A stretch of 58,732 bases of DNA from Parvularia atlantis (Eukaryota; Opisthokonta; Rotosphaerida): NCBI GenBank assembly GCA_943704415.1, contig CALSCO010001648.1:1-58732 (forward strand), given 5' to 3'. Numbering within the stretch: position 1 is the first letter of the stretch; the number at the start of each line of letters is the position of its first letter. Positions 1 through 58,732 of this stretch are shown here, in pieces. The position numbers and the translations under genes are program-made. The notes under the pieces are model-generated. The model searched no databases. It was not told where the DNA came from and saw nothing but the letters and a program-made list of their open reading frames with translations.

Positions 1-90
1 GGGGGGGGGCGTGACGCGCGCGCGCGGCAGAAAGCGCGATCACCGACCGAGGAGGAGGAGGACCACGCGGGGCTGACCGGGCGAAGGACG

Positions 91-1281
91 ATGCCACCAC
101 GGGGTGCGTGCGGCGCAGTGCGCGGCGCCGGGCACCGCCCGCGTGCTCAGCAGCGGCCGTGGCGCGGCAGGCGGCCACCGCGACGCCGAGGACACCGACA
201 GCGACGCCGACCAGGTCGTCGCCGACCAGGACGACGCGCTCGACAAGGCGCACGACCACGGCCGGACCGACGACGAGATGTCGTCGGACGGTGCGGCGCG
301 GCCCCGGGCGGCGTCGCGGGGTGCGGGGCACTGACGGGCGTGGCGCCGCACCGCAGGCGAGAGCGACGTCGACGCGAGCGAGACGCGGCGGCGCGAGGCG
401 CTCGAGCACATGGCGCGGATCGAGAAGGAGTTTGCGGAGCTCAAGGACCGGCTGTACCAGGAGAAGATCTCGGGCCTGACGAAGGAGATCGAGCAGGTCA
501 CGAACGGTGCGGGCGGCGCGCGGCGCGTCGTGGCGACGACGGGGCGGCGTAACGCGGCCGGCCCGCAGGCACCCACGCAGAGTTCCAAGAACAGCTCAAC
601 AGCCTCGAGCGCAAGAAGACCGAGAAGCTGCGCGTGGCGCAGGTGTGGCACGAGTACCAGCGCGTGTGCATCGACAACATCTACCGCGCCGAGTGCGAGC
701 ACGCTGAAAACGACCACATGGTGCTGCCGCTGCCGTGCCCTCTTCTCGCGTCGCTGACGCACTTGTGACTTCCAGACCGAGCGGCAGACCATGCGCGAGC
801 AGCTGCTGACGGGGCTGCAGGACAAGCTCAAGCGGCTCGAGGAGGAGCGCAGCTCGATGGAGATCACGTCGAGTGCGTCGCTGCCCTGCCCGGCGCGCCC
901 TCATTGCTGACGCGTCCATACAGCCGCGCGCGCCGAGGCCAACAACGACGCTGCCGCGCGCGCCCCGACCACGCGCAAGCAGCGGCGGCGGCAAATCGAC
1001 CAGGTGCGCGCGTGCGCGCGTGTGTGTGCTTTCCTCGTCTTTGTCGTGACGCGGGCGCGCGCAGATGGACCAGAAGATGCTCAAGCGGCGCGCGGTGGCC
1101 GGGCCGCAGGCGCTGCCGCCGCTGAAGGAGCACGAGATGATGGAGGACCTGCTGGCGATCCGCAAGGTGCGGGGCGGCCGCGTCGCCATCTGCCGTCGCT
1201 GACGTCGGCGTGGCCCGGCAGAGCATGCCGCAGCTGTCGCGCCGCGCGGCGCAGAAGAGCGCAGCCAGCCACGGCACATGA
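91..1281 (+). CDS. SDS3: Sds3/BRMS1-family histone-deacetylase complex subunit
   Basis: Spliced gene for a nuclear Sds3-like protein, a structural subunit of Sin3/Rpd3-type histone deacetylase corepressors. The exon near 410-505 gives an Sds3 core (EFAELKDRLYQEKISGLTKE), followed by a long helical exon (569-710, EFQEQLNSLERKKTEKLRVA) and a C-terminal exon ending LLAIRK. Reading frame holds over seven introns, most starting GTGCG and ending CAG. The N-terminus is acidic (EDTDSDADQVVADQDDALD). I chose the ATG at 91: it opens a 13-nt exon (MPPR+1 nt) whose donor GTGCGT at 104 splices to 171 in the right phase. The stop is TGA 1279-1281. Family assignment is from the Sds3 core; the start is less certain than the body. 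Confidence 0.8.
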
Positions 1282-1603
1282 TCGTCGTCGGCCGCGCGCG
1301 CTGTACCATAGAGAGGCCCTTTCCCTGCTCGCTTTCGCCCCCCTTCCCCCCTCCTTCTGCTCGCGCCGCGCCGCGCGGCTTCCCCCGCGTGCCCCTCGCG
1401 CCGTTTCCCTCCGTCTCTGTCGTTGTCACCCGCCCGTTGATCGCTCGTTCGCCCTCTTCCCCTCGTGCACGCGCCCGCGCCTCACCGTCATCCCCCCCCG
1501 CCGCGCCGCCAGCAGACCGCCAGAGTCGTCCGCAAGCCTCCAGCAGCAGAGGTGCGCGGAGCGGACGGGTGCAGCGGTAGTTAAGCCCCGCGCGCGCCGG
1601 CAG
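1282..1603. promoter_or_regulatory. Intergenic region, probable DMC1 promoter
   Basis: A 322-bp gap between two genes on the same strand. It holds a marked pyrimidine-rich stretch (about 1315-1440, runs of C and T on the + strand) just upstream of DMC1. I see no convincing TATA box, RNA gene or repeat. It presumably carries the Sds3 terminator and the DMC1 promoter; that is inference from position. Confidence 0.35.
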
Positions 1604-3296
1604 ATGGCTCCGATCCGCGCCGCCGTGGCCGAGGGCAGCGCGCACGTGCCCGACACGGACGAGCAGATGATGGAGATGGATGAGGAGGTGCGTGCTGGGC
1701 GGACGGCGCGGCGGCCAACGCGCTGAGACGCGCGGGGGGCGCGCGCGGCAGAGCTTCTACCAGGACATCGACGAGCTGCAGAAGCACGGCATCAACGTGG
1801 CAGACCTGACCAAGCTCAAGCAGGCCGGCGTGTGTACCGTCAAGGTGCGGCAGGCGGCTGGCAGCGGGCGGCACGGGCTCGCTGACGTGCGGCGATGGCA
1901 CGCACGGCACAGGGCGTGCAGATGTGCACGCGCAAGAGCCTGCTGCTGATCAAGGGCATCAGCGAGGCCAAGGCGCGCAGCGCGAACGGCCGTGCCTCCT
2001 TGTGCTGACAGCGCACGCTTTTGCAGGTCGACAAGATTAAGGAGGCCGCCGCCAAGCTCGTCGACTCGGGCTTCATCACCGCGATGGAGTTCTCGGTCAA
2101 GCGCGAGAAAGTCGTTCGCGTGACCACCGGCAGCGCCGAGCTCGACAAGCTACTGGGCGGTGCGTGCGGCGCGGTGTCGGCCGGTCCGGCGCGCTCACGG
2201 CACGCTCGGCGCAGGCGGCATTGAGACGCAGGCCATCACCGAGATCTTTGGCGAGTTCCGCACGGGCAAGACGCAGCTGGTGCGCGTATACCCTGCCCCA
2301 CGCGGCACGCGACTGACTGCGCCGTCCAGTGCCACACGCTCTGTGTCGCCGCGCAGCTGCCGATCAGCGCCGGCGGCGCCAACGGCAAGGTCGCGTTCAT
2401 CGACACGGAGGGTGAGCGCGCCCGCGGCCACCTCGTGGTGCATCGCGCCCTGACGGCCGGCGCAGGCACATTTCGCCCCGAGCGCCTGCGCCAGATCGCC
2501 GAGCGGTTCAACGTGGACGCGGAGGCGGTGCGGCGCCGCTGCGGCACAAAAAAAAAAAACGAGTAGCTCAGGCCTGCGCGGCGCAGGTGCTCGAGAACGT
2601 GATCTACAGCCGCGTGTACAACTCGGACGCGCAGGTGCGTGCCACGTGCCGCGTGTATATGTGTGTGTGTGTGTGTGTGTGCGCGCCCAGGTGCTGACGC
2701 CGCGGCCAGATGGACGCGCTGACGGTGCTCGCGGCCAAGTTCCACGAGGAGGGCGGCTCGTACCGCATGATCATCATCGACTCGATCATCGCGCTCTTCC
2801 GCGTCGACTACAGCGGCCGCGGCGAGCTCTCGGAGCGTCAGCAGAAGCTCAACTCGGTGCGCCGCGACGCGGGCGGACGACGCGGGCGGGCGCTGACGCT
2901 TCTGGCAGATGCTCTCGCGCCTGATCAAGCTCGCGGACGAGTACAACATTGCCGTCGTGATCACGAACCAGATGACAGCCGATCCGGCCGGTGGCATGAC
3001 GTTCGTGGCCGACCCGAAGAAGCCGGTGCGCGCGGCGTGAATGCGCAAGGGCTGGGCTGACGAACGCGAGCGAAGGTCGGCGGCAACATCCTCGCCCACG
3101 CGAGCACGACGCGGCTGTCGCTGCGCAAGGGCCGCGCGGGTGTGCTGCTGTGCGAGTACGTGGCGTGGCTGAGGCGCGCGTGCGTGTGCGGCCGCCAGAG
3201 CAGCGCATCTGCAAGATCTACGACTCGCCCAACCTGCCCGAGAGCGAGTGCGTGTTCCAGATCGGCGTGGGCGGCATCACCGACGCCAAGGACTGA
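1604..3296 (+). CDS. DMC1: Meiotic recombinase Dmc1 (RecA/RAD51 family)
   Basis: Strand-exchange ATPase that pairs homologous chromosomes in meiosis. Twelve exons read in one frame. The N-terminal helix-hairpin-helix part ([36 protein letters not shown]) is followed by the Walker A region [11 protein letters not shown] (about 2245-2279) and Walker B RMIIIDSI (about 2763-2786). Later blocks include [32 protein letters not shown] and [14 protein letters not shown]. These match Dmc1 rather than Rad51 at diagnostic places ([17 protein letters not shown]). Eight of eleven introns begin GTGCG; the third (1973-2026) begins GC. One intron (about 2635-2709) contains a (GT)n run. The length is that of a complete Dmc1. 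Its presence implies a sexual cycle. Confidence 0.95.
2657..2682 (+). repeat. (GT)n microsatellite inside a DMC1 intron
   Basis: A run of about eleven GT dinucleotides inside the intron that precedes the exon beginning [11 protein letters not shown]. It lies between the donor GTGCGTGCC and the branch-like sequence GCTGACGC. Confidence 0.85.
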
Positions 3297-3373
3297 AGCC
3301 GCGCGCGCGCGCGTGAGCGAGGCGCGTCTGTCTGTGTGTCTGTCTGCTGAGTCAGGGCGGGACGCGGGGTGCG

Positions 3374-15464: not shown

Positions 15465-17941
15465 TGGCGTCATCAGCCTCGGCGCGCCCAACCAGAAGGC
15501 CGGCACCATCACCATCGGCGGCCCGGCCGTCAAGACGCCCGCGCTCGCCAAGCCCCCCGCCGCCGCCGCGACCGCCGCCAGCACCGCCGCCGGGGCAGCT
15601 GACCCCAAGAAGGCCGCGCCCGCCGCCGCGCCCGCCAAGGCCGCACATGCCGCCGCCGCCGCCGACAAGGACAAGGCGCCCGCCACGGCCGCAGCGCCCG
15701 CTGACAAGGACAAGGACAAAGACAAGGACGGCGCGGTGGGCGCGACCAACGCGGGCCTCGTCACGGGCATGCAGGCCGCCGCCCTTGCCGAGCCCGACGC
15801 CGCCGACGACGACGAGACCTACCCGGTCTCGCTCACGCAGGACAGCGGCAAGGAGCACCTCAACGTCATCTTCATGGGCCACGTCGGTGCGCGCGCGTGC
15901 TCTGGTCGCTCGCGGGTGCGCGGGACTGACCGTGCGCACGCGCGACGCAGACGCGGGCAAGTCGACCATCGGCGGCCACCTGCTGTGCGCGCAAACGCCG
16001 ACGTGACGCGCGCGCGGTTCCGACACATTCGCACGCGCGCCCAAACAGGTACCTCACGGGCATGGTCGACAAGCGCACGCTCGAGAAGTACGAGGCCGAC
16101 GCCAAGGCCGCCGGCATGGGCTCGTGGTACCTCTCGTGGGCGCTCGACGTCAACCCGGAGGAGCGTTCCAAGGTGCGCGCCGGTGTGTGCTGCGCGTGGC
16201 CCGCTCTGCTCACGCCGCGCGCTGCAGGGCAAGACGGTCGAGGTCGGCCGCGCCTGGTTTGAGACTGAGAAGAAGCGCTACACGCTGCTCGACGCCCCCG
16301 GCCACAAGTCGTACGTGCCCAACATGATTGGCGGTGCGGCGCAGGCCGACATGGGCATCCTGGTGCGTGCATGTGCGCACACGCGCGCGCGCGCGTGCCT
16401 TGACACCCCGCCGCAGGTCATCTCAGCCAAGAAGGGCGAGTTCGAGTCGGGCTTCGAGAAGAGCGGCCAGACGCGCGAGCATGTCATGCTCGCCAAGACG
16501 GCCGGCGTGCGCCGACTGATCGTCGTGATCAACAAGATGGACGAGGGCACGGTCAACTGGTCGCAGGAACGGTGCACGCGGCACGGCACGGCACGGCACG
16601 GCACGGCTGCTCACGCCAGCGCCGCGCGCGTGTGCAGTTACGACGAGATCGTCGGCAAGCTGACGCCGTTCATCAAGGCGTCCGGCTTCGGCTCCAAAGG
16701 TGCACTTCCTGCAGCCCGCGTGCCCGTGCTCAACGGCGCCCGCACAGACGTCAACTTCATGCCCGTCTCTGGCTACACAGGCGCCAACCTGAAGGAGCCT
16801 CTGACGAAGGAGGTCTGCTCGTGGTGGCCCGAGGGGTGCGTGGGTGCCCGTGTGTGCGACAACCCAGGCTGACGTACGCGACAGGCAACCCTCGCTGCTG
16901 CAGTACCTCGACAGCCTGCCCAAGATCGAGCGCCCGGTAGACCAGCCGCTGCGCCTGCCCGTGACGGAGAAGGTGCGGCGGCGCGTGCTGACCGCCGTAC
17001 GTGCGGGCGCTGACCCGCGCGCGGCGCTCGCAGTACCGCGACATGGGCACGATCGTGTCGGGCAAGATCGAGTCGGGCTACATCAAGCTCGGCCAGAAGC
17101 TGATGATTATGCCGAATCAGGTGCGTCGCTGCCACACCGTGCCGCGACAGTGCCTCACACGCATGCGCACGCGGCCTTGCCAGCACCGCTGTGAGGTCGC
17201 CAGCATCGCGATTGACGAGGATGAGGTCCAGATCGCCAAGAGCGGCGAGAACGTGCGCCTGCGCCTGAAGAACTGCGAGGAGGACGACCTGTCGGTCGGC
17301 TTCGTGCTGTGCCACCCCAAGGCGCCGGTCAAGATTGCGCGGGCGTTTGAGGCGCAGTTGGTGATCGTCGAGCACAAGAGCATCATCACGTCGGGCTTCC
17401 GCGCGGTGCTGCACATCCACACGGCCGTCGAGGAGGTCACGCTGCAGGTGCGTCCTGCCGTGCTTGCTCGCGTGTGCCCCTGAGATCTCGCCCCTGCCGC
17501 CGCACAGGCCCTCCTGTTCTCGATCGACAAGAAGACGGGCAAGCGCCTGAAGAAGCCGCCGGTCTTCGTGCGCCCGGGCGAGGTGTGCATCGCGCGGCTC
17601 GAGACCGACGGCGTCGTGTGCATGGAGACGTACGAGAACTACCCGCAGCTGGGGCGCTTCACGCTGCGCGATGAGGGTGCGCGTGTTGTGTGCGCGCGTG
17701 CAGGGCCGGGTGCTGACGGCTAGCGCGCGCGGGTGCGCCAGGCAAGACGGTGGCGATGGGCAAGGTGCTCAAGCTGATCCCGCTGAGCGACACCGAGGCG
17801 GCCAACCAGGCGGCATCGTCCGCTGCGACCGCCGCGGCCGTTGCGGCATCTGCGTCGTCTGCGTCCTCGTCGTCGTCGTCGGCGGCGGCTGCTGCGTCGG
17901 CGGCTGCTGCTGCGTTGGCGGCCGACGGCGACGATGAGTGA
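15005..17941 (+). CDS. SUP35: Translation termination factor eRF3 (Sup35/GSPT family GTPase)
   Basis: GTPase that works with eRF1 in translation termination. The N-terminus is Sup35-like: a Q10 run, a PAM2-like PABP-binding motif (NFNPNVQAYVP), Q/Y/P-rich segments, a second Q run of about 14, then an Ala/Lys linker with KDKDKDKDKD. The GTPase domain has GHVDAGKST (G1, split by an intron after GHV), DAPGHKS (G3) and NKMD (G4), plus YLTGMVDKRTLEKYE and the eRF3 signature WYLSWALDVN-like. Domains II and III follow (DMGTIVSGKIESGYIKLGQK, IVEHKSIITSGFRAVLHIHT, ENYPQLGRFTLRDEGKTVAM). After KVLKLIPLSDTE the protein has about 50 extra Ala/Ser residues ending ADGDDE, which is not typical of the family. 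Introns are short with GTGCG donors. Confidence 0.95.
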
Positions 17942-23865: not shown

Positions 23866-25235
23866 ATGGTGCGCGTGCTGCCTCCCCGCGGCGCGCCCGC
23901 GGCTGACGCCAGTGCGCGCGCGCAACCCGCAGCCGCAGAACGAGCACATCGAGGAGGCTGTGCGCCGGCACGGGCGGCGGCTGGACCACGAGGAGCGCGC
24001 GTGCGTCGGCGGCGGCGGGGCTGTTGTGGTCGTGGTCGGGGTGGACGTGGACGTGGACGTGGACGTGGACGAGGGCGAGGGCGCCCCGCGCGCGCGCTCA
24101 CGCGCCGCCACGCCGCCTCCAGCCGCAAGCGCGAGGCGCGCGAGGTGCACGAGCGGTCGTCGTACGCGCAGAAGGTGCACGGTCTCAAGGCCAAGCTGTA
24201 CCACAAGAAGCGCCACGCCGAGAAGGTCCAGATGAAGAAGACGTGCGCCGCCGCCGCGCCTCGCGCCTCTCCGGCTGAGCAGCCCGTCGCGGGGTCGTCG
24301 CGGCGCGCAGCATCAAGATGCACGAGGAACGCAACGCCAAGCAGAAGGACGACGAGGCCGTGCCCGACGGCGCCATCCCCGCGTACCTCATGGACCGCGA
24401 GGGCGAGGCCCGCGCCAAGGTGCTACTAAGCGCGCGCGCCCCCTCGCCCGTCGGCCGCTCACCGCGCCCGCGCCCCGCCCATCGCACGCGACCCGCAGGT
24501 GCTCAGCAACATGGTGAAGCAGAAGCGCAAGGAGAAGGCCGGCAAGTGGCAGGTGCCGCTGCCCCAGGTGCGCGGCGTGGCCGAGGAGGAGGTCTTCAAG
24601 GTGCTGCACTCGGGCAAGCGCAAGTGTACGCACGGCCGCGCAGCGTCACGCACGGAAACGCCACGCTCAACTCGCACGCGCGCACGCACCGCAGCCAAGT
24701 CGTGGAAGCGCATGGTCACGAAGGTCACCTACGTCGGCGAGGGCTTCACACGCAAGGCACGCGCGCCCGACGCGACCTCCCGTGCGCCGTGCTGACCGGC
24801 GCCTTTTGCTGCAACGCACAGCCGCCCAAGTTTGAGCGCTTTATCCGGCCGAGCGCCCTGCGGTTCAAGAAGGCCAACGTGACGCACCCGGAGCTCAAGA
24901 CGACGTGCGCGCCCGCCAGGGCCTGTGCCGCCCCCTTGTGGTGACGCAGATGCGCGCAGGTTCCAGCTGCCGATCATCGGCGTGAAGAAGAACCCCAACT
25001 CGCCCCTGTTCACGCAGCTGGGCGTGATCACCAAGGGCACGGTGATTGAGGTCAACGTGAGCGAGCTCGGCCTGGTTACGCAGAGCGGCAAAGTCGTGTG
25101 GGGTGCGTCGCGACCGGTCGGCGGGCGCTGCACACGCGGTGCTGACGCGCTGTGTGCGCGAGCCCAGGCAAGTACGCGCAGGTGACCAACAACCCCGAGA
25201 ACGACGGCGTGATCAACAGCGTACTCCTCGTGTGA
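23866..25235 (+). CDS. NSA2: Ribosome biogenesis protein NSA2 (large-subunit maturation)
   Basis: Nucleolar 60S-assembly factor, almost fully alignable to human NSA2 (TINP1). Read in order: [180 protein letters not shown] and [20 protein letters not shown] at the stop. Exon 1 is the start codon alone: ATG at 23866-23868 is followed at once by donor GTGCGC, and exon 2 starts with the codons for PQNE, the family N-terminus. The second intron (24001-24122) is long for this genome and holds GTGGAC repeats. Confidence 0.96.
24001..24122 (+). repeat. GTGGAC hexamer repeat in NSA2 intron 2
   Basis: The 122-bp intron contains a run of about five GTGGAC units (about 24039-24070) followed by GAGGGC units. 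The flanking donor GTGCGTC and acceptor CTCCAG join HEERA to RKREAR in frame. Confidence 0.75.
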
Positions 25236-32314: not shown

Positions 32315-33039
32315 CGTGCTGGACGACGAGCCCGCGCCGCCGCCGCCACCTGATGAGCCCAGCAGCACCGACAGCGAGCCGCTCGTGGCCGACGACGTCA
32401 GCCGAGACGAGTTGACGATCACCCGCCCGGAGCCGCCCTCGCTGCCACCGCCGCCGCCGCCGCCGCCGCTGTTTGTTATGCCAAACGAGGAAGGCGAGGC
32501 GGCACGCGATAGCGACTGCGGCGACGCGGTCGACGACGCCGGCGGCGTCAGCAGTGCGTCGCCAGCCGGTCCCGGCGCCGCCGCGGACGACGACAGGACC
32601 GGCGCCGACGACAGCCGCTTGAAGAAGGCCAGCGTGCGAGAGGACAGCGCGCAACAACAAAGTGGCCTATGTATATATGACACCTGATTGTTAAGGCGAA
32701 CGTGACCGCGCTCCACGCCGCAGTCGTCGGCGTGCGCGAGCCAGCCAGGCCCTCGCCGTACGGGTGAATTCGTGGAAAGTGTGACGCACAGCTCTGCGTC
32801 TCTTTGAGCGCCCTGCAATGTCGTCGTCGCCTTGCCGCACAGCAACTCCGCGTCGCCTGGTGCGGTGTGCAACGTGTGCGCCGTGGATCGGTGCTACAAA
32901 TTAGCGCTTCGCGCCCATCGCATGCACACCGCTGTCGCACGCCGAGGCCGCACGTGTGCCAGTCACGCGAAATGTTTTATTAACGACCGCGGCCTCGCTC
33001 ACGCGGACATGTAGCCACACTAGTGCTGCGCACCCTCCC
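32315..33039. promoter_or_regulatory. Upstream region of the PH gene with TATA-like element
   Basis: A 725-bp stretch. About 32315-32640 could be 5' UTR or unassigned N-terminal coding sequence of the PH gene (Ser/Gly-rich, open on the minus strand). A TATA-like CATATATACATA lies at about 32668-32680 on the minus strand, a rare motif in this GC-rich DNA, and would suit that gene. Beyond about 32690 base composition becomes less GC-rich and no gene is seen. Confidence 0.4.
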
Positions 33040-34240: not shown

Positions 34241-34684
34241 GTCATCTGAGGAACCGTCGTCGTCAAGGCAATCGACACGCTGCGCTGTCTTGCTCGGCTC
34301 GTCTACACTCCCGCGGCGCTAAGCCCGGCCGTCGTTACCGTGATGGCCCGCCACGCCGTCACTCGCCAGCTCGAGACGCTGCTGTCAACGCGTTTCGCTT
34401 GCCGCCACACTGGGCCTACACAAAGCTCAAGCGGTACCTGTAAAAGGCGAGGGTTCTCGGGCACGGTGGAGCTCCGGGCGTTGGTTGCACTGTAATCTTG
34501 CCTCTGTTCCGTTCCACCTCTCAGGCCCATTGCATTCGTTTCAAACCCGCCGGTGAAGTTGAAGTTGCTGCAGCATGCACTTCTCATGACATCTCATGCC
34601 AACAACCACAATTCTGCGTTGTGCACTTGTGAATTCAACGTGCCGCAAACGCTGAAGCAGCGTGCGAAAATGCCATTGTGTAGT
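34241..34684. other. Gene-free, lower-GC spacer
   Basis: The 444 bp between the LINE remnant and the prominin-B stop codon. It contains no reading frame I recognise and may include further decayed element sequence. Confidence 0.4.
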
Positions 34685-37600
34685 TCATGCATGTGGCGAA
34701 AGCTCACGGTAGCGCGGTAGCACGCTTGAGTCGGATGCGGATGACGATGCTGCGCATGCTTCTTCGGTCTTTCCGTCTGAAAATCCCGGGTTGGACGGGC
34801 GTCGACAGATGGTGTCGGTGCTTGTGTACTGCGGCGGATGCGCGTTGTGGCTCCGATCAGCCGGCGTCACGTCAACAAGCTCGCAGTTGTGCTCGTCGTT
34901 CACATACTATTGAGCGTGAGCAGACGATTGCGCGCGAACCAGCGCACCTCAACGATGTCCACGGGGAACGCGTCCGGTCGGTCGGAGCAGATGTGCAAAA
35001 CGACAGCCGCCGCGGAAAGAAGCAGTGCCACGCCGGCGCAGCCGAGTGCCCACCACAGCTGGTCAACGGCCGATCTGCTATGTGCGGTCAGCTGATCGCA
35101 CAATCGAAACTGATGAGTCGACAGACACGTACTGCGTGGTGATGCAGATGTCGTTATGTGCAGTAGTATAGCTCGCGCCGAGGTCAGTGCAGCGGGCGGC
35201 GTCGAGGATTGCGTCGAGACCGTCGTCGACCATCCTGACAAGCTTGCGTGCGGCAGTCGGCGCGGTTGTGTCCACAAAAGTGCTTAGCAGGTCGTCTGCG
35301 GTCGTTGACAGCCCGTCCAGCTGCGCATCAACAGCGGCCTTCACGCATTGAAGCGACGCCTGTCAAAAGTGTGAGCCGAAGTTGCGACACGTGTGCACCG
35401 CGCACCGTCAAGTCTGCAGTCTCGTTCTGCAGGCTCTGCGCACTTGCTTGAACAGCTGTGAGCTTGCCGAGCGTGGCGGGCACGGCGCTGTCGATCATGG
35501 TGTTGTACATCGCGGCGATGCGAAGCATGCGCTGACGCAGGTGATCGCGTGACGGCTGCGTGTTGAGCGGCGGGATCGGCCTGTAGCGCATGCAGACCTG
35601 CAAATGCGAATGAATTGTGAGGTGGGCCTTGAGCAGCGGTAGGCACCTCGCACCGCGGGGAATGTCGGGATGTCTCGCAGGGCCTCCCCAAAAGGGCGCA
35701 GGTAGTTGTCGCTCGTGCGCTGGTAGGTGTCATTCATTCCGTCGAGCGTGTCCACCAACGTGCTGATGTTGAACGAGTCGAGCAGAACGACGTAGTCGGC
35801 AATGTCGAGCTGTTTGCGTGCATCGGCGAGACGAGCGTTGAGCGTTCCGTTGATGTCCAGCTGCTTGACGCGAGCAGCGACGTCGTCGTCGCGTAGTCCC
35901 GAGTGCAGCAGACGTCGCAGGCTGCCGATGTAGCTGTCCAGCGTTGGTCCGTCGCCAAATTCGAGAGACTGGATGCTGGCAGGCGGTTGCGTGCACAGTT
36001 TGACGACCTGGCGTTCAGCTCAATGAGCTGTGTGTAAACGGTGTGAGAAGTCGTGCACACCTCGTAGAACAGCGGCAGGGCCACAAGCACGGTCGGGTCG
36101 CTCTGCTGTGCGGTCGGTTGCAGCGAAGGCATGTGTTTCGTGCACGCACCTGGAGCGAGCGCGGGAGCACGGATGCGACAGTCTGCGTGTCGAGCAGTAT
36201 GCAGCCCTCGTCCACTGTAACGCTTGCCACAAAGTAGGCCGCACAGACAATCCACAGGCATGCAGCAAGGACCAGCACAGAAAGTGCAGCGCTGCAGGAC
36301 GGAACGTGAAGATGCGCAATAGGTGTACAAGTGCGCGCACCACGTTAGCAGCCTCGAGCGGTCCCAGACGGCGGTGGCGACCACGACGAGCGCCGAAGCA
36401 CCGACGACGGCTAACAGCACGAGCAGTGCGCTGCGTCTGTGAGTGCCGCAGTAAGGCTGACTGCAACGGCATTCGGGCAGAGCTCGGCACGCACAGTCCG
36501 TCATTGATAGTTCGGACGTAGTCGACGACGGCACCTGCGTGCAGACTTGATTGTGCTGTGGCCAGCTGTGCCGAGATGGGCCCAAGTGCCTGCCGATGTG
36601 CAACTCAGTGCGATGTCACGGTAAGCATCCAGCAAGCGAACCGCGTCGAGTGTCCGCTGGCCCTGTCTGCGGGCATCGTGGACGTACGCTTGCGCCTGGT
36701 TGAGCAATTCTGCGCACCGACGTGTGAGCTCAGCACAACAATAAGCGTAAATCGATCACACCGTGCACGGTCGCCGCTGCTTGCTCGGCTGCGGCATCGG
36801 CTCCACCGGCGAGGCGAGCAGCGGTGTCCCGCGCACTGGAAGAGACGTTCGTGGTGGCGAGGGTGCTGAGTATGGCGGTGAGGTTCGGCATGACGATCGG
36901 GTCGATCTGCTGGCGCGGGACGCGAGGCAGGCAGAAGGTCCGCAGTGCATAGTCTGCCGCACGGGTCGTGTGAGCGCAGCCGATGATCCAGACAGACGCA
37001 GCGCGCACAGTAGCCGCCCAACGGCGCCAGCTCAAAGAGACCGTCGTACGTGTCCTGCAGGTTGTTGAAGCTGTCGCGCAGCGCGTTCATTGAGACCGTC
37101 GCGTCGGTGATGGTCGCGTTCTGATTCGCGCACGCGGGTTTAGGCTGCTGGCTGCAACGCGAGGTGGTCGCGCACCAGGCTGAGCAGGGCGGCGTAGAGG
37201 CTGTTGACGTGCTGCTGGACGTGATCGGCCTCGCCGGTGATGTTGACCAGCACCGGGGTGAGCAGGGTCGCGACGAGGGCGCGCGGGACATCGGCGGCGC
37301 CGTCGGCGGTTGCAGCGATGGAGCTGTGCAGCTGCGCGCGTGTCGCAGTGACTGGAGTGAGAATGTCTCAACAGGGGTTGTGCGCTGACCTGCCCGGCGG
37401 TGTCGGCGAGCGTCTGTGCAAAGCGCGGCTGTACCTGCTGCGCGGTGTCGATGAGCGCGTCGAGCGAGGCCACGTCGTGCTGAACGGCGCTGTGCACGCG
37501 CTGGACGCTGACGATGCCGAGGGCGACGCCGACGCTGCACAATGGGCCGGTGAGTGCTGCTTGACGGGGCTGAGCGGGCGCGCAACGTACACGGCGAGTG

Positions 37601-38115: not shown

Positions 38116-41100
38116 CGATGCACAGGATGCCGCGTCGCACCCGTGCTGTGCAGGCCGCGGCGTCGCTGGCCGCGCTGGTCGCGATCTTGGCCGTGGCCTT
38201 GCTCGGTGAGTGCACCCGCCCTCCCCGGTCCCTTCTGAGCCGCGCCTTGCGCCGCGCAGCACCCGCCTCCGCGGCCACGTACGACGTGCGCACGGCCGTG
38301 CCGTACAACTTCAGCGCAGCCGAGCAGGACCAGCTGTACCGCCTGGCCAACACCAGCGACAGCGGCGCACTGCAGCCGTGGGTCAACATGCCGCAGGGCG
38401 TGCGCACCGCGAGCACGCCGGACGTGCAGTACGTGTTCGACACGGTCTACGGCGGCTTCACCGGCAGCGGCGGCGACCTGCGCACGTTCGTGCTGGCCGT
38501 GCTCAACAGCATCGCCGTGCGCCGCCCGCGCACGCCGTTGCCGGGCCCGGCCGCGCGCGCTCACCCGCCCACGCGGCGCCACACAGGGCCTGATCACGAT
38601 CTTCATCCTGTGCATCATCTTCGCCATCCTCGCCTGCTGCACCTGCCCCTTCTTCTACTGGTGCCGCAGCTGCGGGTGCTGCGGCGGGGCGCGCCCCACC
38701 AAGCTCAGCCCGTACACCGACGCCGAGAAGCGCGACGCCGTCATCGTCCTTGTCGTCGGCCTCATCCTTGTCAGGTGCGCGATGCGCCGCCGGGCCGACC
38801 AGGCGGCGCTCACCGCCCGGCCCGCCGCGCGCCCCGCAGCGTCGGCGGCATCATCGGCATCTTCGCCAGCGTGCAGATGGCCAAGGGCATCGACGGCGTC
38901 CTGTTCTCGGTCGACCACACGATCAACGATGCGAAGAACCTGCCGATCCAGGTCGTCGGCTTGGCGTACGACCTCGTGGACCAGGTGCGCCCGCGCGCTG
39001 TTCGTCGCGCGTACTCACTGCGCTCGCAGCTGAACGACACCGTCACCGACATCGCCAACAACCTCAAGGACGCGCCAACGTCGTTCATCGTCGGGCAGAT
39101 CACGCCGTACGTGTTCAACCTGACCGCGCAGATCAGCGCGCTGCAGATTGTCTTTGACGACATCTACAACCAGCTCGACTTGCTGGCGCGCGCTCGCCCA
39201 CATTGAAGCGCACACAGCTCGCTGACAAGGCGCTGTACGCAGGACACGACGTCGCAGGATACGCTCGACACGATCACGCTGCTCAAGACGAACTTTGACG
39301 ACGTGCAGGCCCAGTACGCGGCGCTGCTAAACTACTACTCCTTTAACACGTTCTGTGCGTGGCTCCGCGCGTTGCGCTCGCTGCATGCATGGCGGCTGAG
39401 CGGTGTGCACTGCAACAGCGTATCGCATTGTGTGCCTGCCGCCCGTGCCGAACCGCAGCTTCGGCATTCCGACGTTCCCGGACGGCAAGTCGCTGCTGTC
39501 GTACGTGGACACGTTCAACCTGACGGCCGAGGCGATCAATATTGAGAACAACTACAACTCGTTCTCGGACAACGTGCTGGCGCAAATCGACGACACGATC
39601 GACGGTGCGCCGCGCCGGCGGGGACGCGCGCCGCCGTCGCTGCTCACCGCACCGCTCGCACGCAGACATCGTCGGCGAAGTCACCCCGAAGACGACAGAG
39701 TTCCTCGACCAGGCGGTGGACAGCGTCAACGGGGTGCGCCGCGCGTGCGCGGTGTGGCGCCGCTGACGGCTAAGACGCGCAGATCGCGGGCTCAATCAAT
39801 GGCATTCTCAACGACATCCAGGGCACCATCCGCACGTACAATGACCAGTACGTCGCCGTGGCCAACTACTGGCGGTGCGTGCGCGCGTGCGGCATAAAGA
39901 AAGGGCTGCCGCGTGCTGACGCCGGGCCGCCTCAGCAACGTCGGCATGTGCATCATCTTCTCGTTCGTGTGGATCGTGATGCTGCTGGCCATCTTCGGCA
40001 TCTCGATCAAGATCTCGTGCCTGGTGACCTTGTACGTGCCCCGCGCGCGCGTGTTGTCGCCGGCCGCACTCCCTGACCGTGGCGCGTGTGTGCCGCAGCG
40101 GCGCCGTCCTCGCTTTCACGCTCATGTGGATCCTGTGGTACTTTGCCGCGTTCCAGTACATCATCGCTGTGCCGATCGGCCTGGTCTGCAAGTCGATCGA
40201 CTCGCAGGCGATCACGCAGGTGATCCCGAGCCAGGTGCGTCGCGCTGTTTGTCCGTGCCGTCGGCTGTGCACTCACGCCGCGGCGACCGTCCTGGCAGCT
40301 CAACGTGTCGTTTGTGGACGACTACGTCCCGATCGCGTACGAGATCATCGACACGTGCACGCAGCCTGACGGCAACCTGGCCAACGTGACAATCATGGGC
40401 AGCTCGCTCATCGGCGTGATCCAGCCGCTGCGGGCCCAGTTTGACGACGCGATCAACCAGCTGAACCTCACCGGGTTGATCGAGAGCATTGACATCGCGG
40501 GCCAGATCGGCGACCTGGACGTCGCCGGCAAGTTCAACCTCACAGGCTACCAGGGCTACCTCGACAACATTGCCTCGGCCAACTACGACGAGCCCATCGG
40601 CCTGGTCAACCAGACGTACCTTGACGTGCAAGGCTGGCTGGTGGACTACGACGTTTTGAGCACGGTCCCCGAGCCCGTGCCCGACGTGCGTGAGCGAGTG
40701 CCGCCGGGCGACCACGTGGCGCACACTGATGCGTGCGCCGCTCGCGTGCAGTCGTGTCTGGAGTACAGCGGTGCCACGCCGACCGGCACCGACCTGAACG
40801 ACGTCAAGAACGACGCGCGCGCGCGCATCAACAGCGCCATAGCCGCGCTCAACACAGTCAGCACGGTCGACCTGCCCGCGCTGAGGGACAACATCAACCT
40901 GCTCGCCAGTCAGACCGCGACGCTGTCGACCAAGACAGCGGCATCGGCGGTGCGGCACGGGCGCGGCAGGCGCACATATGTGCGCGCCGACGCTGACATT
41001 GCAGCGCAGCCCGTCGTGTTCCAGCTGTCAGCCTTGGCCCTCAACGCGACGGCGATCGTCGTGGCCCAGTCGGACGCGTTCCTCAACAGCCTCGTGCAGA

Positions 41101-41574
41101 CCGTCGTGCCGGCGCAGATTGCGCTCGCGCGCACCTTTGTCAACAGCGCGATCGACCAGGTTATCGGGCTCGCCGACTGCTACTTTGTCGGCCAGGACTA
41201 CCTCGCGTTCAAGAACAGCATCTGCGTGCTCTTTGTGTGCGTGCGGCGCTGCGCGGCCTTGTGCGCGCCGCTCGCTCACGTCGGCGGCTGGCGGCAGGGG
41301 CGGCCTGGACGCAGTCTGGTGGGCATGTGGCTACGTCGCGACGCTGCTGATCATCGTCATCGTCGGCCTGACGCTCACGGCCAAGCGCATCATCCTCAGC
41401 GCGTACATCGACGACGGCCTGCAGGACGTGTCGTACGTTGACACGGAAATGGCGACCATCGGCGGCTCGTCGTCGGCGGCGCCGTACAGCGGGCAGCAGC
41501 CGCCGAGCTACAGCGAGCTTAACAGCCCGCCGAGCAAGACGACGGACGAGGCGATCGACAACCGCTACGCCTGA
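38116..41574 (+). CDS. Prominin-like pentaspan membrane protein, copy A
   Basis: A five-membrane-span protein of the prominin family, which marks and shapes plasma-membrane protrusions by binding sterols. The N-terminal signal sequence is VQAAASLAALVAILAVALL, then an ectodomain. TM1 is GLITIFILCIIFAILACC, followed by the Cys-rich motif typical of prominins (CTCPFFYWCRSCGCCGG). TM2 spans AVIVLVVGLILV to VGGIIGIFASV. A large loop carries N-glycosylation sites and FNLTAEAINIENNYNSFSDN. TM3 and TM4 are MCIIFSFVWIVMLLAIFGIS and LAFTLMWILWYFAAFQYIIA. The second loop has VTIMGSSLIGVIQPLRAQFD and FNLTGYQGYLDNI. TM5 is GYVATLLIIVIVGLTLTA. The tail has a PPxY motif (QQPPSYSELNSPP). The stop is at 41572-41574. 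Most introns have GTGCG donors. Confidence 0.85.
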
Positions 41575-43993: not shown

Positions 43994-46512
<2,519 letters not shown>

Positions 46513-47053: not shown

Positions 47054-48330
47054 ATGCTCCACGTGACGCGCACTGTGGGACGGCGCTTCCTCGCCTCGTC
47101 CGCCTCGTCCGCCTCGTCCGCGGCGGCGTTCGCCTCGACTGCGGCGTCGGTGCGCCCTTCTTGCAGCAGCCGCGCCGTCCGCAGGCCCACACGCACGCAC
47201 GCACGCGCGCAGATCGGCTTCATCGGCCTCGGCAACATGGGCGCCCACATGGCCCGCAACCTGCTCAAGGACGGCCACCGCCTCGCCGTCTACGACCTGA
47301 GCGCGGGCGCGGTGCAGCTGCTGCAGCGGGCCGGTGCGACCGCTGCCGGTGCGTCTGCGTGCGCACGCGCTGCCGTCGTGGCGCGCCTGATCTCTGCGCT
47401 TGCGGGCGCGCGCGCCGCAGAGTCGCCCAAGGCGCTCGCGGCCTCGGCGGACGTGGTCATAACCATGCTCCCCTCCTCGCCACACGTGCAGGACATCTAC
47501 GGCCACCTTATCCCCGCCGCCCGCGCCGGCGCCCTCCTCGTCGACTGCTCGACCATCGACCCGGCCGTCTCACGCGCGCTCGCCAAGCAAGCGGCCGACC
47601 GCGGGCTCGCCGCCGTCGACGCGCCTGTCTCGGGCGGCGTGGGCGGCGCCGAGGCCGGCACGCTCACGTTCATGGTCGGCGGGCCGGATGCGGCCTTCGA
47701 GCGCGCCAAGCCGGTGCTGCAGCGCATGGGCAAGAACATCGTGCACTGCGGCGCGAGCGGCAACGGCCAGGTGCGCACAGGGGACCGCGCCGCAGCAGGG
47801 CTTCGCACCCAATGCACACACACACACACACACACGCGCGCGCGCGCACCGTCCCAGGTCGCCAAGATCTGCAACAACATGCTCCTCGGCATCACCATGA
47901 TCGGCACGGCCGAGGCGATGAACCTGGGCGTGCGCATGGGCATGGACCCGAAGCAGCTCGCCGCGATCATCAACACGTCGTCCGGCCGCAACTGGTCGTG
48001 CGACACGTACAACCCCTGCCCGGGCGTGATGCCCAACGTGCCGGCCTCGCGCGGCTACACGGTGCGGGCGCGCGTGCGGGTTGGCCGCCCGCGGGCGGCA
48101 GCGTCTCACGCGCGCGGCCGCAGGGCGGCTTTGGCTCTGCGCTGATGTGCAAGGACCTTGGCCTGGCGAGCGCGGCCGCGAGCGGGTCGTCGTCGGCGGT
48201 GCACCTGGGCAAGCTCGCGCACGAGGTGTACGAGCGCATGCTCGCGGCGGGGTACGCCGGCAAGGACTTTTCGGCTGTGTACGAGTGGCTGAGCCAGCAC
48301 TCGGGCGGCGATGCGGCGAAGAAGGCGTGA
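47054..48330 (+). CDS. HIBADH: 3-hydroxyisobutyrate dehydrogenase, mitochondrial
   Basis: NAD-dependent enzyme of valine breakdown in mitochondria. A Ser/Ala/Arg presequence (MLHVTRTVGRRFLASSASSA) precedes the Rossmann motif IGFIGLGNMGAHMARNLL. Later family signatures: VVITMLPSSPHVQDIYG, VDAPVSGGVGGAEAGTLTFM, and KICNNMLLGITMIGTAEAMN with the catalytic lysine, then INTSSGRNWSCDTYNP, FGSALMCKDLGLASAAAS and DFSAVYEWLSQHSGGDAA. Four or five introns; one (about 47772-47857) holds a (CA)n run. Stop 48328-48330. Complete by length. Confidence 0.95.
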
Positions 48331-52779: not shown

Positions 52780-52837
52780 CGATCTGCTTTCTGTCTCGCG
52801 CACTGCGCTGGCCACAGCACACTCTATAGCCTGCTCG

Positions 52838-55275
52838 TCAGACCAGGTCCGCGTAGGCGGGCCGCATGGCGTACATCCCGCTGAGTGCGCGCTGCGTGTC
52901 GATCGCGACCGAAAAGTCGTAGCTGCGCGTGCGCGCGACACGTCAGCCAGGCGTCGTGGCAGGCCAGCCTTGGGTCGCGCACGCACACTGGCCGCACGGT
53001 GTAGAGGATCGGGTGGGCCAGGTACGGCGGCAGCGCACCGGCGGGCGCCGACGCCGCGCCTGCCGTCTCGGCCTTGGCCGCCGGAGACGCCTTGCCGGCC
53101 GCGGCCTTGTCCTTGCCCTTGCCCTCCTTGGCCGGCTTGTCCTTGTCCTTGCTCTCCTTGCCCTTGGCGTCCTTGGCCGCGCCCTCCTTGGCTGAATGCG
53201 CAGAGCCGGTGAGCACGGTGCGTCGCCTGCCGTGCGCGCGCACCGTCCGTCGTCTTGGTCACGCCGCTGAGCGTCGACATGGCCTTGAGCTTGCCGTCGG
53301 GCACGGTGATGAGCACGAGCGACCCAGACGCGAGCAGGCTGTCGCAGATGTAGAAGCCGCGCCGCTCGAGCTGGATAAAGTCGCCCTTCTTGAGCGTTCC
53401 GAGGTTGTTGTCGACCACGACCTCGGTCTGCGCGCGGCGGTCAGGCCAGCTGCCGCACCCCGAGAGTACGCGCGCACCCTGAACTCGGTCTGCTCGTTGA
53501 GAAAGTCCTGGAAGTTGTCCTCGTCCTCAATCTTCTTCTTCGTGATCAGGAAGTCGTAGTCCATGAGCGTCGCCGGCAGCAGGTTGCCCTCCCTGCGCGC
53601 CCGCGCGCGTCATCGGCCCGCCCGGGCACACGGCCGGCCGCTGCGCACTTGGCCAGCCACGTAAGCTTCTTCTTCGTCTTTTTGAAGTCGCCCTCGAGGT
53701 GCAGCTCGCCCTCGACCGACACAACCTTGCCGCTCGTGTCGCGGTTGATCTTGCGCGCGATCGCGTTGCCCCAGTCCATCAGCGTGACCTGCGCGCGGCG
53801 CGGCTGAGTAGGGGACCGCAGGGCGCACAGCGAGCGCGCGCGTGCACCTCCTCATCCACCTCCAGCTCGTTCGCGTCGTCGCTGTCGATGAGCACGTTGC
53901 GCGAGAACCACGTCGTCTTGAGGCCGACGTCCGGGTTCTTCTTGTGCTTGGGCAGCTCGGACGAGTACGGCTTGTCCGGGCCGTTGACGAGCGTCCAGGG
54001 CACGCTGCGCGGCGGCGTCAGATGACAAACGCGCAAAGCGTGCACGCTGTACGCGCGTACGCCGCGGCGACGGCCGTGTGGCGCGGCGCGATCGGGTCGA
54101 GGGCCTTGCGGTTGAGCTGCGTCGTTGCCGTCAGACGCCCCTGCACCGCGACCAAACCGCGCCAGTCGCACCGCCCAGAACTTGTCCCACTCGAGGTTGA
54201 GCGCGTTCTTGGACGCGCCCTGCAGCAGGATGTACTCTTTGAGCGACTCGACCGTCATGCCTCTCCGTAGCACGCCTATGCGCGCACGTGTCAGCCGCGG
54301 GCGTGTGTGCGCCGCGGAGCGAGCGCACCGCGGATGGTCGGGAAGCGCGGGTCATCCCACCCGGTCACGCGCTTGTTGTCGACAAACCACGTCAGCTTGC
54401 GCTTGGACAGGAGCGTGTAGACAAAGTTGACGCGGCTGTAGTCCCAGATGTGGACCTTGCGCAGGTTGAGCGCGTCGATGAACCACTTGAACTGGTCGTT
54501 GCGGTCGTGGTACTCGTCCGTGCGCAGCGCGTGCGTCACGCCCTCGAGGCTGTCGACGACAGGGCAGGCAAAGTCGTACGTCGGGTACACCTTGAACTTG
54601 GTGCTGGCGGATCGCACGGCCGTCAGCCACAGCCCGCCGGAGTGCTGCGGTGCGCCCAACGCACCCGGTGCGCGCGTGCGGCACGTCGTTGCAGCGGTAC
54701 ATGACAGGGTCGCGCAGCGCCTTGTTCTTGGCGTCGACCGACATCTTGGCGCGCAAGCAGCACGTCTTGCCCTGCAGGGAGCGTGTGAGCGGCAGCGCGC
54801 AGCACTCACGCTGCCGCACGCACAAACTCGGTCCCGTCGATCATCTCCTGGAACCGGCGCGCGTTCTCCTCGACCGAGTTGTTGCGGTTCTTCGACTCGA
54901 CGCCGTCCATGCGCTGCGCGCGCATCTCCTCCTTGGGCGTGTCGTCGACGTAGGCCTTGCCCTCGCGCAAGAGCTTCCAGGCGAGCTCGAGCAGCTTGTC
55001 GAACCAGTCCGAGGTGTAGGTAATCTGGTCCGGCTTGATCTTGAGCATGGCGATGTCTTCGAGGATCGCGTGTTCGTACTCCTCCTGTGCATCGCCCGTG
55101 AGCGCCCAGACGGGCAGCAGCTCCGCCGCGCACCTTTTCCTTGGATGGGTTGGTGTCATCAAAGCGCACGATCAGCTGTGTGCACGCGCGGTAAGCAGAA
55201 ACACGCGAGCGGCGGGCGAGCGAGCGACGGCACCTTGCCCTCGTACGTGCGCGCAAAGTACTCGTTCAGCAGCGC

Positions 55276-55306
<31 letters not shown>

Positions 55307-56250
55307 GACGGCTCGGGCGGGAAGCGCGTGACGACCTTTGTCGGTGCGTGAGGCGTGCGGTCGGCGGGCGCCAGCGCGTCGCACACCTTGCCCTTCTCGG
55401 CGCCGACAAGGCCGATGTCGAACGAGCCCGACTCAGACTTCTTGCGTGCCTGCGCGGGGGCGCAGCGTGTCAGGGCAGGGCGATGCAGCACGGCGCACGC
55501 CGCGCACGCGCACCGCCTCTTTCTCGGCCGCGACGAGCGATGCGACCGTGCTCGCGGCCTCCTTGTAGCAATCGTGCGACTCGATGAAGCTGAGCCAGCG
55601 CATGACGTGCGCGTACTTGTCCTCGTTGCCGGCCGTCTGCGCGATCTTCTTGAAGATGGGCGAGCCTGCGGCGGCCGCGGGTTGGCCGTGTGCACGGAAG
55701 GGGGGAGGACAGCGCAATGGACGACGTGCCTCGCAGCGCGTCGGCGACGGCGAGGTCGGCCACGGTGAGCGCGTAGCCGACGATGTACGTGCGCATCTTG
55801 AGCCACTCGTTCAGCCGCGTGAGGCCGGCCGTGACCAGGGCAAAGTCGCCGCCGACAAAGGTCTTGATGGCGACGTCGATGGCCATGTGCTCGACCTGGG
55901 CGCGCCGCGCCTGAGTGGGCCCCCACACCCCGGCCGCGCGGCGCGCACGTACCAGGGACGCGCCCTGCGGGTCGGCCAGGCCCGCGCCGTCGAGGTGGTG
56001 CGCGGGCGCGAGGCGCGCGACGTGCAGCGCGGCGTCGTAGGCGCTCGTTGTGGGCACGACCGCGCCGTCTTTGCGGAACTCGATGCCGCCGCCGGCGCCC
56101 CAGGCGACGTGCACGCCGACGGTGGGCCGGACGGCGATCGATGTGGCGAGCGGCACTGCGGCGCGGCGTGCGCGGTGGTCGGCGACCGTGGGGCGGGGCA
56201 CGGCGCGCACCTGTTACGCCACGCGCAGACGGCGAGAGCACCAGCGCCAT
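52838..56250 (-). CDS. GUS1: Cytosolic glutamyl-tRNA synthetase (GluRS)
   Basis: Class I aminoacyl-tRNA synthetase of the eukaryotic/archaeal GluRS type. A GST-like N-terminal domain ([54 protein letters not shown]) precedes the catalytic core: [20 protein letters not shown] (HIGH motif), [21 protein letters not shown]-like [60 protein letters not shown] and [14 protein letters not shown] (KMSKS equivalent). The anticodon-binding beta-barrels follow ([40 protein letters not shown]-like). A Lys-rich insert ([20 protein letters not shown], about 53190-53080) sits near the end, before LYTVRPV and the last exon [20 protein letters not shown], ending AYADLV. Start ATG 56250 ([13 protein letters not shown]). 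It is not fused to ProRS as in animals. Confidence 0.93.
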
Positions 56251-56491
56251 GGCTCGGTGACAGCAGGCCAAACTGCGTGCGTCCCGCAAGCCGTCGAAGT
56301 CACGGCCGGTGACGTCAGCAGCGATCTTGCTCTTAAAGCGAGGTGCAGCGCGGCATTTTTCCTCGCAGACCGCGCCCCGACCTCTCGCCGCCGCCCGCCC
56401 AGCACCCTGCTTACGCGAGCCGCACGCAGCAGCACACGCAACAGCCCACGCAGCAGCCCACGCAGCAGCACGCACACACCAACCCGCCAAG

Positions 56492-57007: not shown

Positions 57008-57228
57008 GGCGCCGTCCCCGCCGTGCCGTGCCGCGCGCGGGCGCCGTCGCTGGCCGTGTGTCTCTCCGCGCGCACCTGCCGCCTCTTCTCCCCGTTCGTG
57101 TGTGTGTGACTTGCTGGGTCTCAGGTGCCAAAGCGGCCGCGTGTGCACGGGCGCAAAACCAGCCACGCGACGGTGATGCCGGCGAACCCTGTGCGCTGCA
57201 CTTTGCTGCACCCGGTCAGTCGTCGCCA

Positions 57229-58390
57229 ATGGCCCCGCCCGTCACCCGCTACGCCACGCGCCTCGCCGCCGCCGGCGTCGTCGTCACCCTCGCCGCCGGC
57301 GTCTGGGCCGCGCGTCGCCACGACCGCGCGCTGCGCACGAGCTACCCGACCGGCGACTTTGGCACGCCGCCGCCCGAACTGGTCAGTCTCGCCGCGCGCC
57401 TGTGCTCGCTGCGCCGTGCTGACACGCACACACGCGCGTCCTCCTCACCGGCGCGCAGACGACCTGGGAGCGCGCGCTCGTGCACCTGCTGCGCGCCCTG
57501 CCCAACCGCGCCATGTCGCGCGTGGCCGGCGCCGTGGCCGACATCGAGCTGCCGCGGGTGCTGCGCCACCCGGTGTACAGCGCGTGGATGCGCGTCGTCG
57601 GCGCCGACCGCGATGAGATGGCCGAGCCCGACCTGGCCAAGTACCGCACGCTGGGCGAGCTCTTCGTGCGCCGCCTGCGGGATGACGCACGCCCGATCGA
57701 CCCGGACCCGGACGTGCTCGTGCGTCGCGACTGCACGCCTGCACGCCACCGCGCGCGCGCGCGCGCGTAACTCACGCGCTGGCCGCGGCGCGCGCCAGGT
57801 GAGCCCCGTCGACGGGCAGATCGTCGCGTGCGGGCCCGTGCGCGCGCGCCACGTCGACCAGGTCAAGGGCGCGACGTACGACCTGCTCGCGTTCCTGGGC
57901 GAGCCGGACGCGGGCAGCACGGTGGCCGAGCTGCTGCAGGACGTGGTGGAGGACGCGCTCGAGGCCGACGCCGACGTCGCCGCGGCCGCGGCCACCGAGA
58001 GCGACGGCGGCCCGGCGCGGCTGTACTCGTGCGTGATCTACCTGTCGCCGCGCGACTACCACCGGTTCCACGCACCGACCGAGCTGACGATCGAGACCGT
58101 GCGGCACTTTTGCGGTGCGCGTGGTGCTAGCGAGTGCGTGCCCCATCCGGCCAAGCGCTGATGTGCGCCGTGTGGTGCGCGCAGCCGAGCTGCTGTCGGT
58201 GCACCCGGGCGTGACGCGGATGGTGCGCAACCTGTTTGTCTACAACGAGCGCTCGGTGCTGCTGGGGCGTTGGCAGCACGGCTTCTTCGCCTTTGCGGCG
58301 GTGGGCGCGACCAACGTGGGCTCGATCGTCCTGGCGGGGCCCCTGGCAACGGCGACTGAGGCGATCGAGACGGCGCCTGCCAAGCACGCG
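57229..58390 (+). CDS. PSD1: Phosphatidylserine decarboxylase, incomplete at window end
   Basis: Mitochondrial-type enzyme that makes phosphatidylethanolamine from phosphatidylserine. The N-terminus has a membrane segment ([20 protein letters not shown]). Core blocks: [90 protein letters not shown] and [17 protein letters not shown]. The last exon seen ends ETAPAKHA at 58390, where a GTGCGT donor follows. The C-terminal part with the self-cleaving GST motif (LGST in relatives) is not in the window. The N-terminus might include a further upstream exon, since an ATG at 57177 precedes a possible donor. Confidence 0.9.
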
Positions 58391-58732
58391 GTGCGTCGTC
58401 GGTTGCGATCACCTGTCTGATCGGTGGTGGGGTGGGGGACCTGGGCTTCGCGCTGTTTGTTTGCTTTTGACAAGCGTCTCGGGTTGCGGCGCCGGGGGGG
58501 GCAGTTGGGAGGCGCGCGGGGCTCGTGGTCCTATTGCATCAGTGCTCGCGCTGCTGCCGCCTGGCCTTTCTCGCTGCTCGCGGGCTGCTCGCGGGCTGTG
58601 CGCGCGGGTGACGCCGCTCGGTTGGGGCGCGGCGGCGGCGCGGCGTTGGGGCGGCGGGCGCGCGGCACGCAGCCGCATGGGAACGGTCGAAATGAGCCCG
58701 TTGCTAGGACGGGAAAAAACACGGCGCCCTCC
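58391..58732. other. G-rich window end, no exon recognised
   Basis: After the last PSD donor come 342 bp with several G runs (GGTGGTGGGGTGGGGG near 58422; GGGGGGGG near 58492). I find no match to the missing PSD C-terminus and no other gene. It is either a long intron, a broken gene end or contig-edge sequence. Confidence 0.35.

Follow-up and report, generated by a model that had tools for sequence, protein, structure and literature searches.

Introns of Parvularia atlantis begin mostly with GTGCG, and no compensating change is found in the assembled U1 or U6 sequence

Introns of the window and of the sampled loci

The stretch analyzed here, called the window below, is contig CALSCO010001648.1 (C397) of Parvularia atlantis, 58,732 nucleotides long, from GenBank assembly GCA_943704415.1, which comprises 16,251,876 bases in 616 contigs. 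Its genes include DMC1, eRF3, NSA2, ELP3, glutamyl-tRNA synthetase and PIG-U, and its GC content, like that of the other loci sampled, is ~70%. A preliminary description of the sequence had proposed that the introns of these genes mostly begin with GTGCG, so that the 5' splice site (donor) reads G-C-G at +3 to +5 with a C at +4 mismatched to standard U1 small nuclear RNA (snRNA), and that GC drift could yield such donors but would then call for an adaptation of U1 or another factor, or for donor choice by other cues. Here we follow up that proposal.

Genes were modelled over 318,732 bases with a self-training hidden Markov model (HMM) that started from codon-position composition alone and accepted every GT as a donor and every AG as an acceptor. 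With GT as the sole donor rule at the start, GTGCG opened 169 of the 241 introns in the window and 706 of 1031 in 258,732 bases. A later version, in which GC donors and a branch-site term were allowed, gave 833 GTGCG donors among 1232 introns (median length, 57) in the full 318,732 bases. Whether training started from a flat, GTAAGT, GTATGT or GTGAGT donor, the same donors were reached, ~72% of them GTGCG (10 of 21 sequences, 148,732 bases). We also made homology-only spliced alignments of six window proteins with solved homologues, leaving the donor unconstrained and imposing, as in the HMM, only the AG at the intron 3' end. These placed 57 introns, of which 39 began with GTGCG, 9 with another GT (48 GT in total), 2 with GC and 7 with other letters. 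For DMC1 the alignment returned GTGCG in 8 of 11 introns, the figure given in the preliminary description, together with one GTGAGC, one GCGCGC and one donor 3 nt from GTGTGC. As background, GTGCG accounts for 9.2% of the GT dinucleotides on one strand of the window and for 10.2% of those on the other. HMM, homology and background thus agree, and at the level of gene prediction they confirm that the introns mostly begin with GTGCG.

Among the GTNNN words of the window none is more common than GTGCG, as would be expected if the gene finder had simply latched onto a common word. However, the free-donor alignments agree with the HMM donors, the four different starts converge, and in a control of reversed, non-complemented sequence just 27 of 566 HMM introns began with GTGCG. 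An artefact of this kind is refuted in the main, and we give it almost no credence.

A high-confidence set of 606 introns (of 1180) was drawn, with use of the donor matrix, from genes of 600 or more coding bases by requiring an intron length of 42 to 80, exons of at least 20, an exact CTNAC and a CAG end. Its consensus has G at −1 (73%), T (90%) or C (9%) at +2, G at +3 (90%), C at +4 (89%), G at +5 (93%) and C (53%) or T (30%) at +6, and the base content of its introns is 37.5% C and 35% G. A second high-confidence set, free of the donor matrix, holds 587 of 1111 introns. The branch site is CTGAC in 404 and CTCAC in 291 of the 1232 introns, 92% of which have a C before the final AG, in line with the branch motifs and CAG end originally proposed. 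Short introns with these branch sites may suggest a fungal type of intron. A GT or GC start, an AG end, an upstream branch motif and snRNAs with normal pairing segments (see below) together mark these predicted introns as major-spliceosome (U2-type) introns.

GC-AG introns

A point missed by the preliminary description is that the HMM placed GC donors at 142 of the 1232 introns (~11.5%). When any base was permitted at +2, the model settled on 0.87 T, 0.12 C and 0.006 to 0.007 each of A and G. Two GC donors have homology support, one in DMC1 (position 1973, aag/GCGCGC; slashes mark the exon-intron boundary) and one in NSA2 (24757, aag/GCACGC), and ~40 to 49% of the high-confidence GC donors carry A at +3. 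In DMC1, a GT-only model skipped the exon adjoining a GC donor; prediction tools that expect GTRAGT donors, or GT alone, will go wrong in genomes like this one.

The assembled snRNAs

The U1 gene, on the minus strand at C477:706-869 (88.1 bits), opens with the canonical sequence AUACUUACCUGG. No second U1 scored above the cut-off of the covariance model anywhere in the assembly, where the one partial match, at 13 bits, fell far below it, and a BLAST search of the assembly with the U1 gene yielded no further copy. The one U6 gene found (C142) keeps GAUACAGAGAAGAUU with the ACAGAGA box unchanged, and when a 23-nt segment of it was searched for in the assembly with as many as 3 mismatches allowed, no variant copy turned up. 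The branch-pairing site of U2 (C10), GUGUAGUA, with GUAGUA, and the loop of U5 (C53), CGCCUUUUACU, are likewise normal. The snRNA searches scored the best candidates only. No 5.8S rRNA was matched in the assembly at E up to 1 among the best 39 of 404 candidates, which suggests that the assembly lacks the rDNA and is incomplete.

These results bear directly on the idea that a compensatory change, in nucleotides 3 to 11 of U1 or in the ACAGA box of U6, lets the spliceosome pair with GTGCG. An incomplete assembly could lack an snRNA copy, and the U6 gene is odd elsewhere, with an insert after ACAGAGAAGAUUA. Against this stand the canonical 5' end of the only full U1 match, to which covariance model and BLAST alike point, the unchanged U6 box and the gain of +3A by GC donors (see below), a base that pairs with an unchanged U1. 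We consider a compensatory change very improbable. The most useful result of this work is a negative one: the proposed U1 or U6 sequence compensation was not found in the assembled sequence. That part of the preliminary description is not supported, while the G-C-G at +3 to +5 and the mismatch of +4C to U1 are borne out by the consensus and by the canonical U1.

In the U6 gene (C142:8820-8981), the insert is ~49 nt long, follows ACAGAGAAGAUUA directly and is flanked by GTTGC repeats. Its removal so as to restore GCAUGG would need a GT start but a TT, not AG, end. Inside it lies a stretch resembling an RNA polymerase III B box, and the U6 segment before the insert has no other occurrence within 3 mismatches. 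The U2 gene has GGCUUUGAUCAAG in place of the GGCuaaGAUCAAG of the Rfam consensus, with two U for two A beside the U6-pairing stretch.

Donor bases covary as expected for pairing with canonical U1

In the donor-matrix-free set, A at +3 was found in 18 of 37 GC donors and in 18 of 550 GT donors (odds ratio [OR], 28; p = 1e-14), and GC donors were richer in A at −2 (OR, 6.8) and G at −1 (OR, 4.3). In the same set, G at −1 traded off with T at +6 (OR, 0.43; p = 2e-5). The enrichment of +3A in GC donors was the same in the matrix-chosen set (OR, 24), though +3A scores low in that matrix. The covarying positions are ones that pair with canonical U1, which implies that U1 pairing is still at work.

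Matrix-chosen donors form a mean of 4.7 Watson-Crick pairs with U1, out of 9, versus 3.4 for other GT sites, and U1 duplex energy, computed for the 604 of the 606 high-confidence introns with GT or GC donors, separated the two with an area under the curve (AUC) of 0.78 to 0.80; the donor matrix over +3 to +6 reached an AUC of 0.95 when compared with exon GT and of 0.88 when compared with intron GT. Because the donors were chosen with the donor matrix, these pairing and AUC values are all upper figures.

We also considered two classes of donor, set apart by exon strength and strength over +3 to +7. In the donor-matrix-free set the two strengths were not significantly correlated (0.03); the biased, matrix-chosen set gave a correlation of −0.11 (p = 0.008). 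We rejected the classes.

C at +4 exceeds what composition supplies

Among 478 matrix-chosen GTGNG donors, +4 was C in 91% and G in 0.8%. In other GTGNG sites the same position held C in 56% of cases in intron interiors (n = 254), 39% in the antisense of introns (n = 665), 53% in coding sequence (n = 1020) and 47% (n = 236) and 56% (n = 287) in two intergenic sets, and G in 4% to 22.5%. GTGNG donors of the matrix-free set had 395 C, 29 T, 4 A and 4 G at +4 (C in 395 of 432), and those of the homology set had C in 39 of 41 (p = 3e-8 against 0.563). In the 606 high-confidence introns, +4C stood at 86% where intron GC was 63%, at 92% where it was 73% and at 90% where it was 82%. Inside exons, G/GTGCG occurred at 0.73 of its expected frequency (60 synonymous shuffles; z = −4.2). 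The contrast between 91% in donors and 39 to 56% elsewhere, together with the near independence from intron GC, suggests that +4C is selected, although composition appears to account for roughly half of it, with something maintaining the remainder.

If GC drift were the whole explanation, +4 would hardly be read and GTGCG would be a product of mutation bias. In four of the five other GTGNG site sets C is indeed the leading base (47 to 56%), the window and loci are ~70% GC, and some GC-rich algae also have an elevated share of GC-AG introns. Yet G, which GC bias favors as much as C, falls to 0.8% in donors, where C rises to 91% and barely tracks intron GC, and C is as prevalent in the homology-only set (39 of 41). 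Pure drift seems to us unlikely, and the original remark that drift alone is insufficient holds.

A probable explanation: a shifted donor with unchanged snRNAs

Taken together, these results are probably best explained by a donor that has moved to G/GYGCGY in a genome of ~70% GC, in major-spliceosome introns that are still selected by canonical U1, with the snRNAs themselves unchanged. Canonical U1 would select donors through G at −1, G at +1, U at +2, G at +3 (as a wobble pair), G at +5 and, when present, U at +6, leaving +4 unpaired in the U1 helix; a loss at one position is offset at another, as the covariation shows. GC pressure may have given the direction of change at +2, +3 and +6. Statistically, C at +4 is kept beyond composition, so that a preference for C, or for a pyrimidine, at some later step is probable. 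This step would most likely be the hand-over to U6, in which +4 faces A43 of the ACAGA box.

Proteins located near the donor were sought in the assembly. A METTL16-family gene keeps the CNPPF motif and has as its best solved match the U6 A43 methyltransferase (168 bits). SNRNP27, aligned with the solved 27-kDa protein at 60.7 bits, retains Met141, the position being counted along the alignment. Both genes are thus present in the assembly, and Met141 has not been lost. The 39-residue zinc finger of U1-C (C317), joined by hand from pieces, scored 50.7 bits, well over the cut-off, and pieces of LUC7 homologues lie on two contigs (C511 and C75). The U1-C gene (C317:4601-4900, minus strand) itself apparently contains two introns, one with a GTGCGT donor and one with a GC donor (aag/GCGCGC). 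A first candidate for U1-C, on C156, does not look like U1-C (we take its product to be WBP4-like), and the match on C317 was adopted instead.

Several observations weigh against this reading. METTL16 and SNRNP27 are retained, though their loss in yeasts accompanies the move away from +4A. +4C trends weakly with intron GC (p = 0.08) and with GC at third codon positions (p = 0.05), which leaves room for drift. Exons avoid G/GTGAG (0.65; z = −2.3) and G/GTACG (0.59; z = −2.6) much as they avoid G/GTGCG, albeit on small counts, so that +4A may still be read and +4C is not singled out. When the base before it is left free, GTGCG shows no avoidance in exons (1.05), and neither do the GC-type words G/GCGCG (1.15) and G/GCACG (0.97). 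Finally, donors with a base other than C at +4 were not reliably compensated: the OR between +4C and −1G in the matrix-free set was 1.31 (p = 0.24) over all donors and 0.46 (p = 0.04) when only donors with +5G were taken. Compensation of +4C by exon bases reached significance in the matrix-chosen set and was not robust in the matrix-free set; we did not use it, and the weight given to +4 is consequently without support from covariation.

A stronger version of the proposal is that the +4 preference has been actively switched from A to C while U1, the U6 ACAGA box, METTL16 and SNRNP27 Met141 were all kept, a third state of +4 beside A and U. Recognition of the C might then rest on an A43-C contact with U6, or on some protein or modification. 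We put this forward tentatively, as a possibility that falls somewhat short of an even chance.

A related alternative is that a changed modification of U6 A43, or a changed protein (Prp8, SNRNP27, U1-C or LUC7), reads +4C directly. Yeasts provide a parallel, in that their +4 A or U preference is associated with METTL16 and SNRNP27 while the snRNA sequence stays constant, and the parts of the literature on GC-AG-rich algae drawn on here invoke modifications or U1 proteins. On the other side, the METTL16 CNPPF motif and SNRNP27 Met141 are conserved here and the U1-C finger scores well. We regard a changed factor as doubtful.

The favored reading, of an altered donor chosen by canonical U1, has a wider bearing. 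The usual account of the donor consensus is base pairing with U1 and U6, and here pairing with both is poor at +4 and often at +6. The unchanged U1 and U6 remove the simplest coevolutionary account, in agreement with the GC-rich algae, and the known correlates of +4 identity fail to predict the base used.

Relation to known donors

The case belongs with the donors of GC-rich algae and is mostly known in kind; these comparisons, and those that follow, draw on portions of the papers cited. In Ostreococcus lucimarinus, introns outside chromosome 2 have a GTGCGTG donor and an ACTGAC branch site, and possible snRNA changes were already raised as worth exploring (PLoS Genet 2008, PMC2483917). That pattern is intron-poor with a very strong donor, whereas the introns here are dense and short, with ~11.5% GC donors and more C than T at +6, and here, unlike in the Ostreococcus passages, the snRNAs have been read. 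Canonical introns of Micromonas have an AG/GTGCGT donor and an NCTGAC branch site, and its IE-A introners carry AG/GYGCGT, with 53% GC donors in IE-A1 (2013, PMC3879977). The GTGCG(T) donor and CTGAC branch of this algal class are matched in Parvularia, where CTCAC is also common.

Micromonas is an alga, many of whose introns are introner copies, while we see no clear sign of such copies here. That introner-like copying spread a single donor sequence through the genome would be in keeping with the Micromonas motif, and similar intron pairs did outnumber those in shuffled sequence (279 versus 48 unfiltered; 175 versus 37 with a low-complexity filter). However, the five similar pairs that we inspected were simple repeats or low-complexity tracts, and 270 of 1125 introns had any similar partner; this origin strikes us as highly improbable.

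GC-AG introns reach 39.6% in Aureococcus, 22.2% in M. pusilla and 7.7% in Chlorella sp., and the U1 5' end AUACUUACCUG is unchanged in Aureococcus and two Micromonas, a situation termed an enigma (2011, PMC3033335). High GC, many GC-AG introns (142 of 1232 here) and a canonical U1 are common to these algae and Parvularia; in addition, +4C and the covariation around GC donors were measured here, and +4 is not treated in the passages on these algae that we drew on.

Rhodotorula graminis, at 67% GC, shows a stronger +3/+4 consensus, and its extended donor consensus was ascribed to C-rich introns (2015, PMC4585186). Its introns are C-rich and G-poor, unlike those here, in which C and G are nearly balanced (37.5% and 35%), so C-richness alone cannot explain +4C. 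In Saccharomycotina, a switch of +4 from A to U is associated with loss of METTL16 or SNRNP27, and the pairing segments of U1 and U6 are invariant (Parker et al. 2023, PMC10581693). As far as those passages go, a changed +4 preference with unchanged U1 and U6 sequences is common to the two cases; the yeasts went from A to U with loss of one gene or the other, whereas here the base is C with both kept, which that precedent does not predict. In the parts of the open-licence PMC literature available to us, we found no report in which a preference for +4C was measured and both METTL16 and SNRNP27 were present.

Introns by gene in the window

The introns placed in the six genes aligned with solved homologues are collected in Table 1. 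The HMM started the first intron of the 3-hydroxyisobutyrate dehydrogenase gene at 47334, likewise at a GTGCG. In the glutamyl-tRNA synthetase gene, 4 of the 11 introns were placed at letters other than GT or GC, in weakly aligned stretches.

Table 1. Introns and intron-bearing gene parts in the window
Feature	Position	Strand	Basis
DMC1 intron, gag/GTGCGT	1688..1751	+	homology-only spliced alignment to human-type DMC1
DMC1 intron, aag/GTGCGG	1845..1912	+	homology-only alignment
DMC1 GC-AG intron, aag/GCGCGC	1973..2026	+	homology-only alignment; also HMM with free +2
DMC1 intron, gcg/GTGCGT	2160..2214	+	homology-only alignment
DMC1 intron, ctg/GTGCGC	2280..2329	+	homology-only alignment
DMC1 intron, agg/GTGAGC (donor more U1-like)	2412..2465	+	homology-only alignment
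DMC1 intron, gcg/GTGCGG	2528..2586	+	homology-only alignment
DMC1 intron, cag/GTGCGT	2635..2709	+	homology-only alignment
DMC1 intron, tcg/GTGCGC	2857..2908	+	homology-only alignment
DMC1 intron, ccg/GTGCGC	3026..3075	+	homology-only alignment
DMC1 intron, cgg/GTGTGC	3140..3198	+	gene model; donor of free alignment 3 nt later
eRF3 (Sup35-type) gene part: 11 introns, 9 GTGCG	15887..17741	+	homology-only alignment
NSA2 gene part: 7 introns, 3 GTGCG, 1 GC donor (24757)	23998..25167	+	homology-only alignment
ELP3 gene part: 14 introns, 11 GTGCG	44066..46315	-	homology-only alignment
3-Hydroxyisobutyrate dehydrogenase gene part: 3 introns, 3 GTGCG	47349..48123	+	homology-only alignment
Glutamyl-tRNA synthetase gene part: 11 introns, 5 GTGCG	53428..55386	-	homology-only alignment

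Elsewhere in the window, ~3 kb (32141-35283) carries no gene model and overlaps the stretch of lowest GC content (60% GC, 34001-36000). Positions 38127-41574 of the plus strand encode a putative prominin-family membrane protein, the first 275 residues of which match Pfam PF05478 (1.7e-10).

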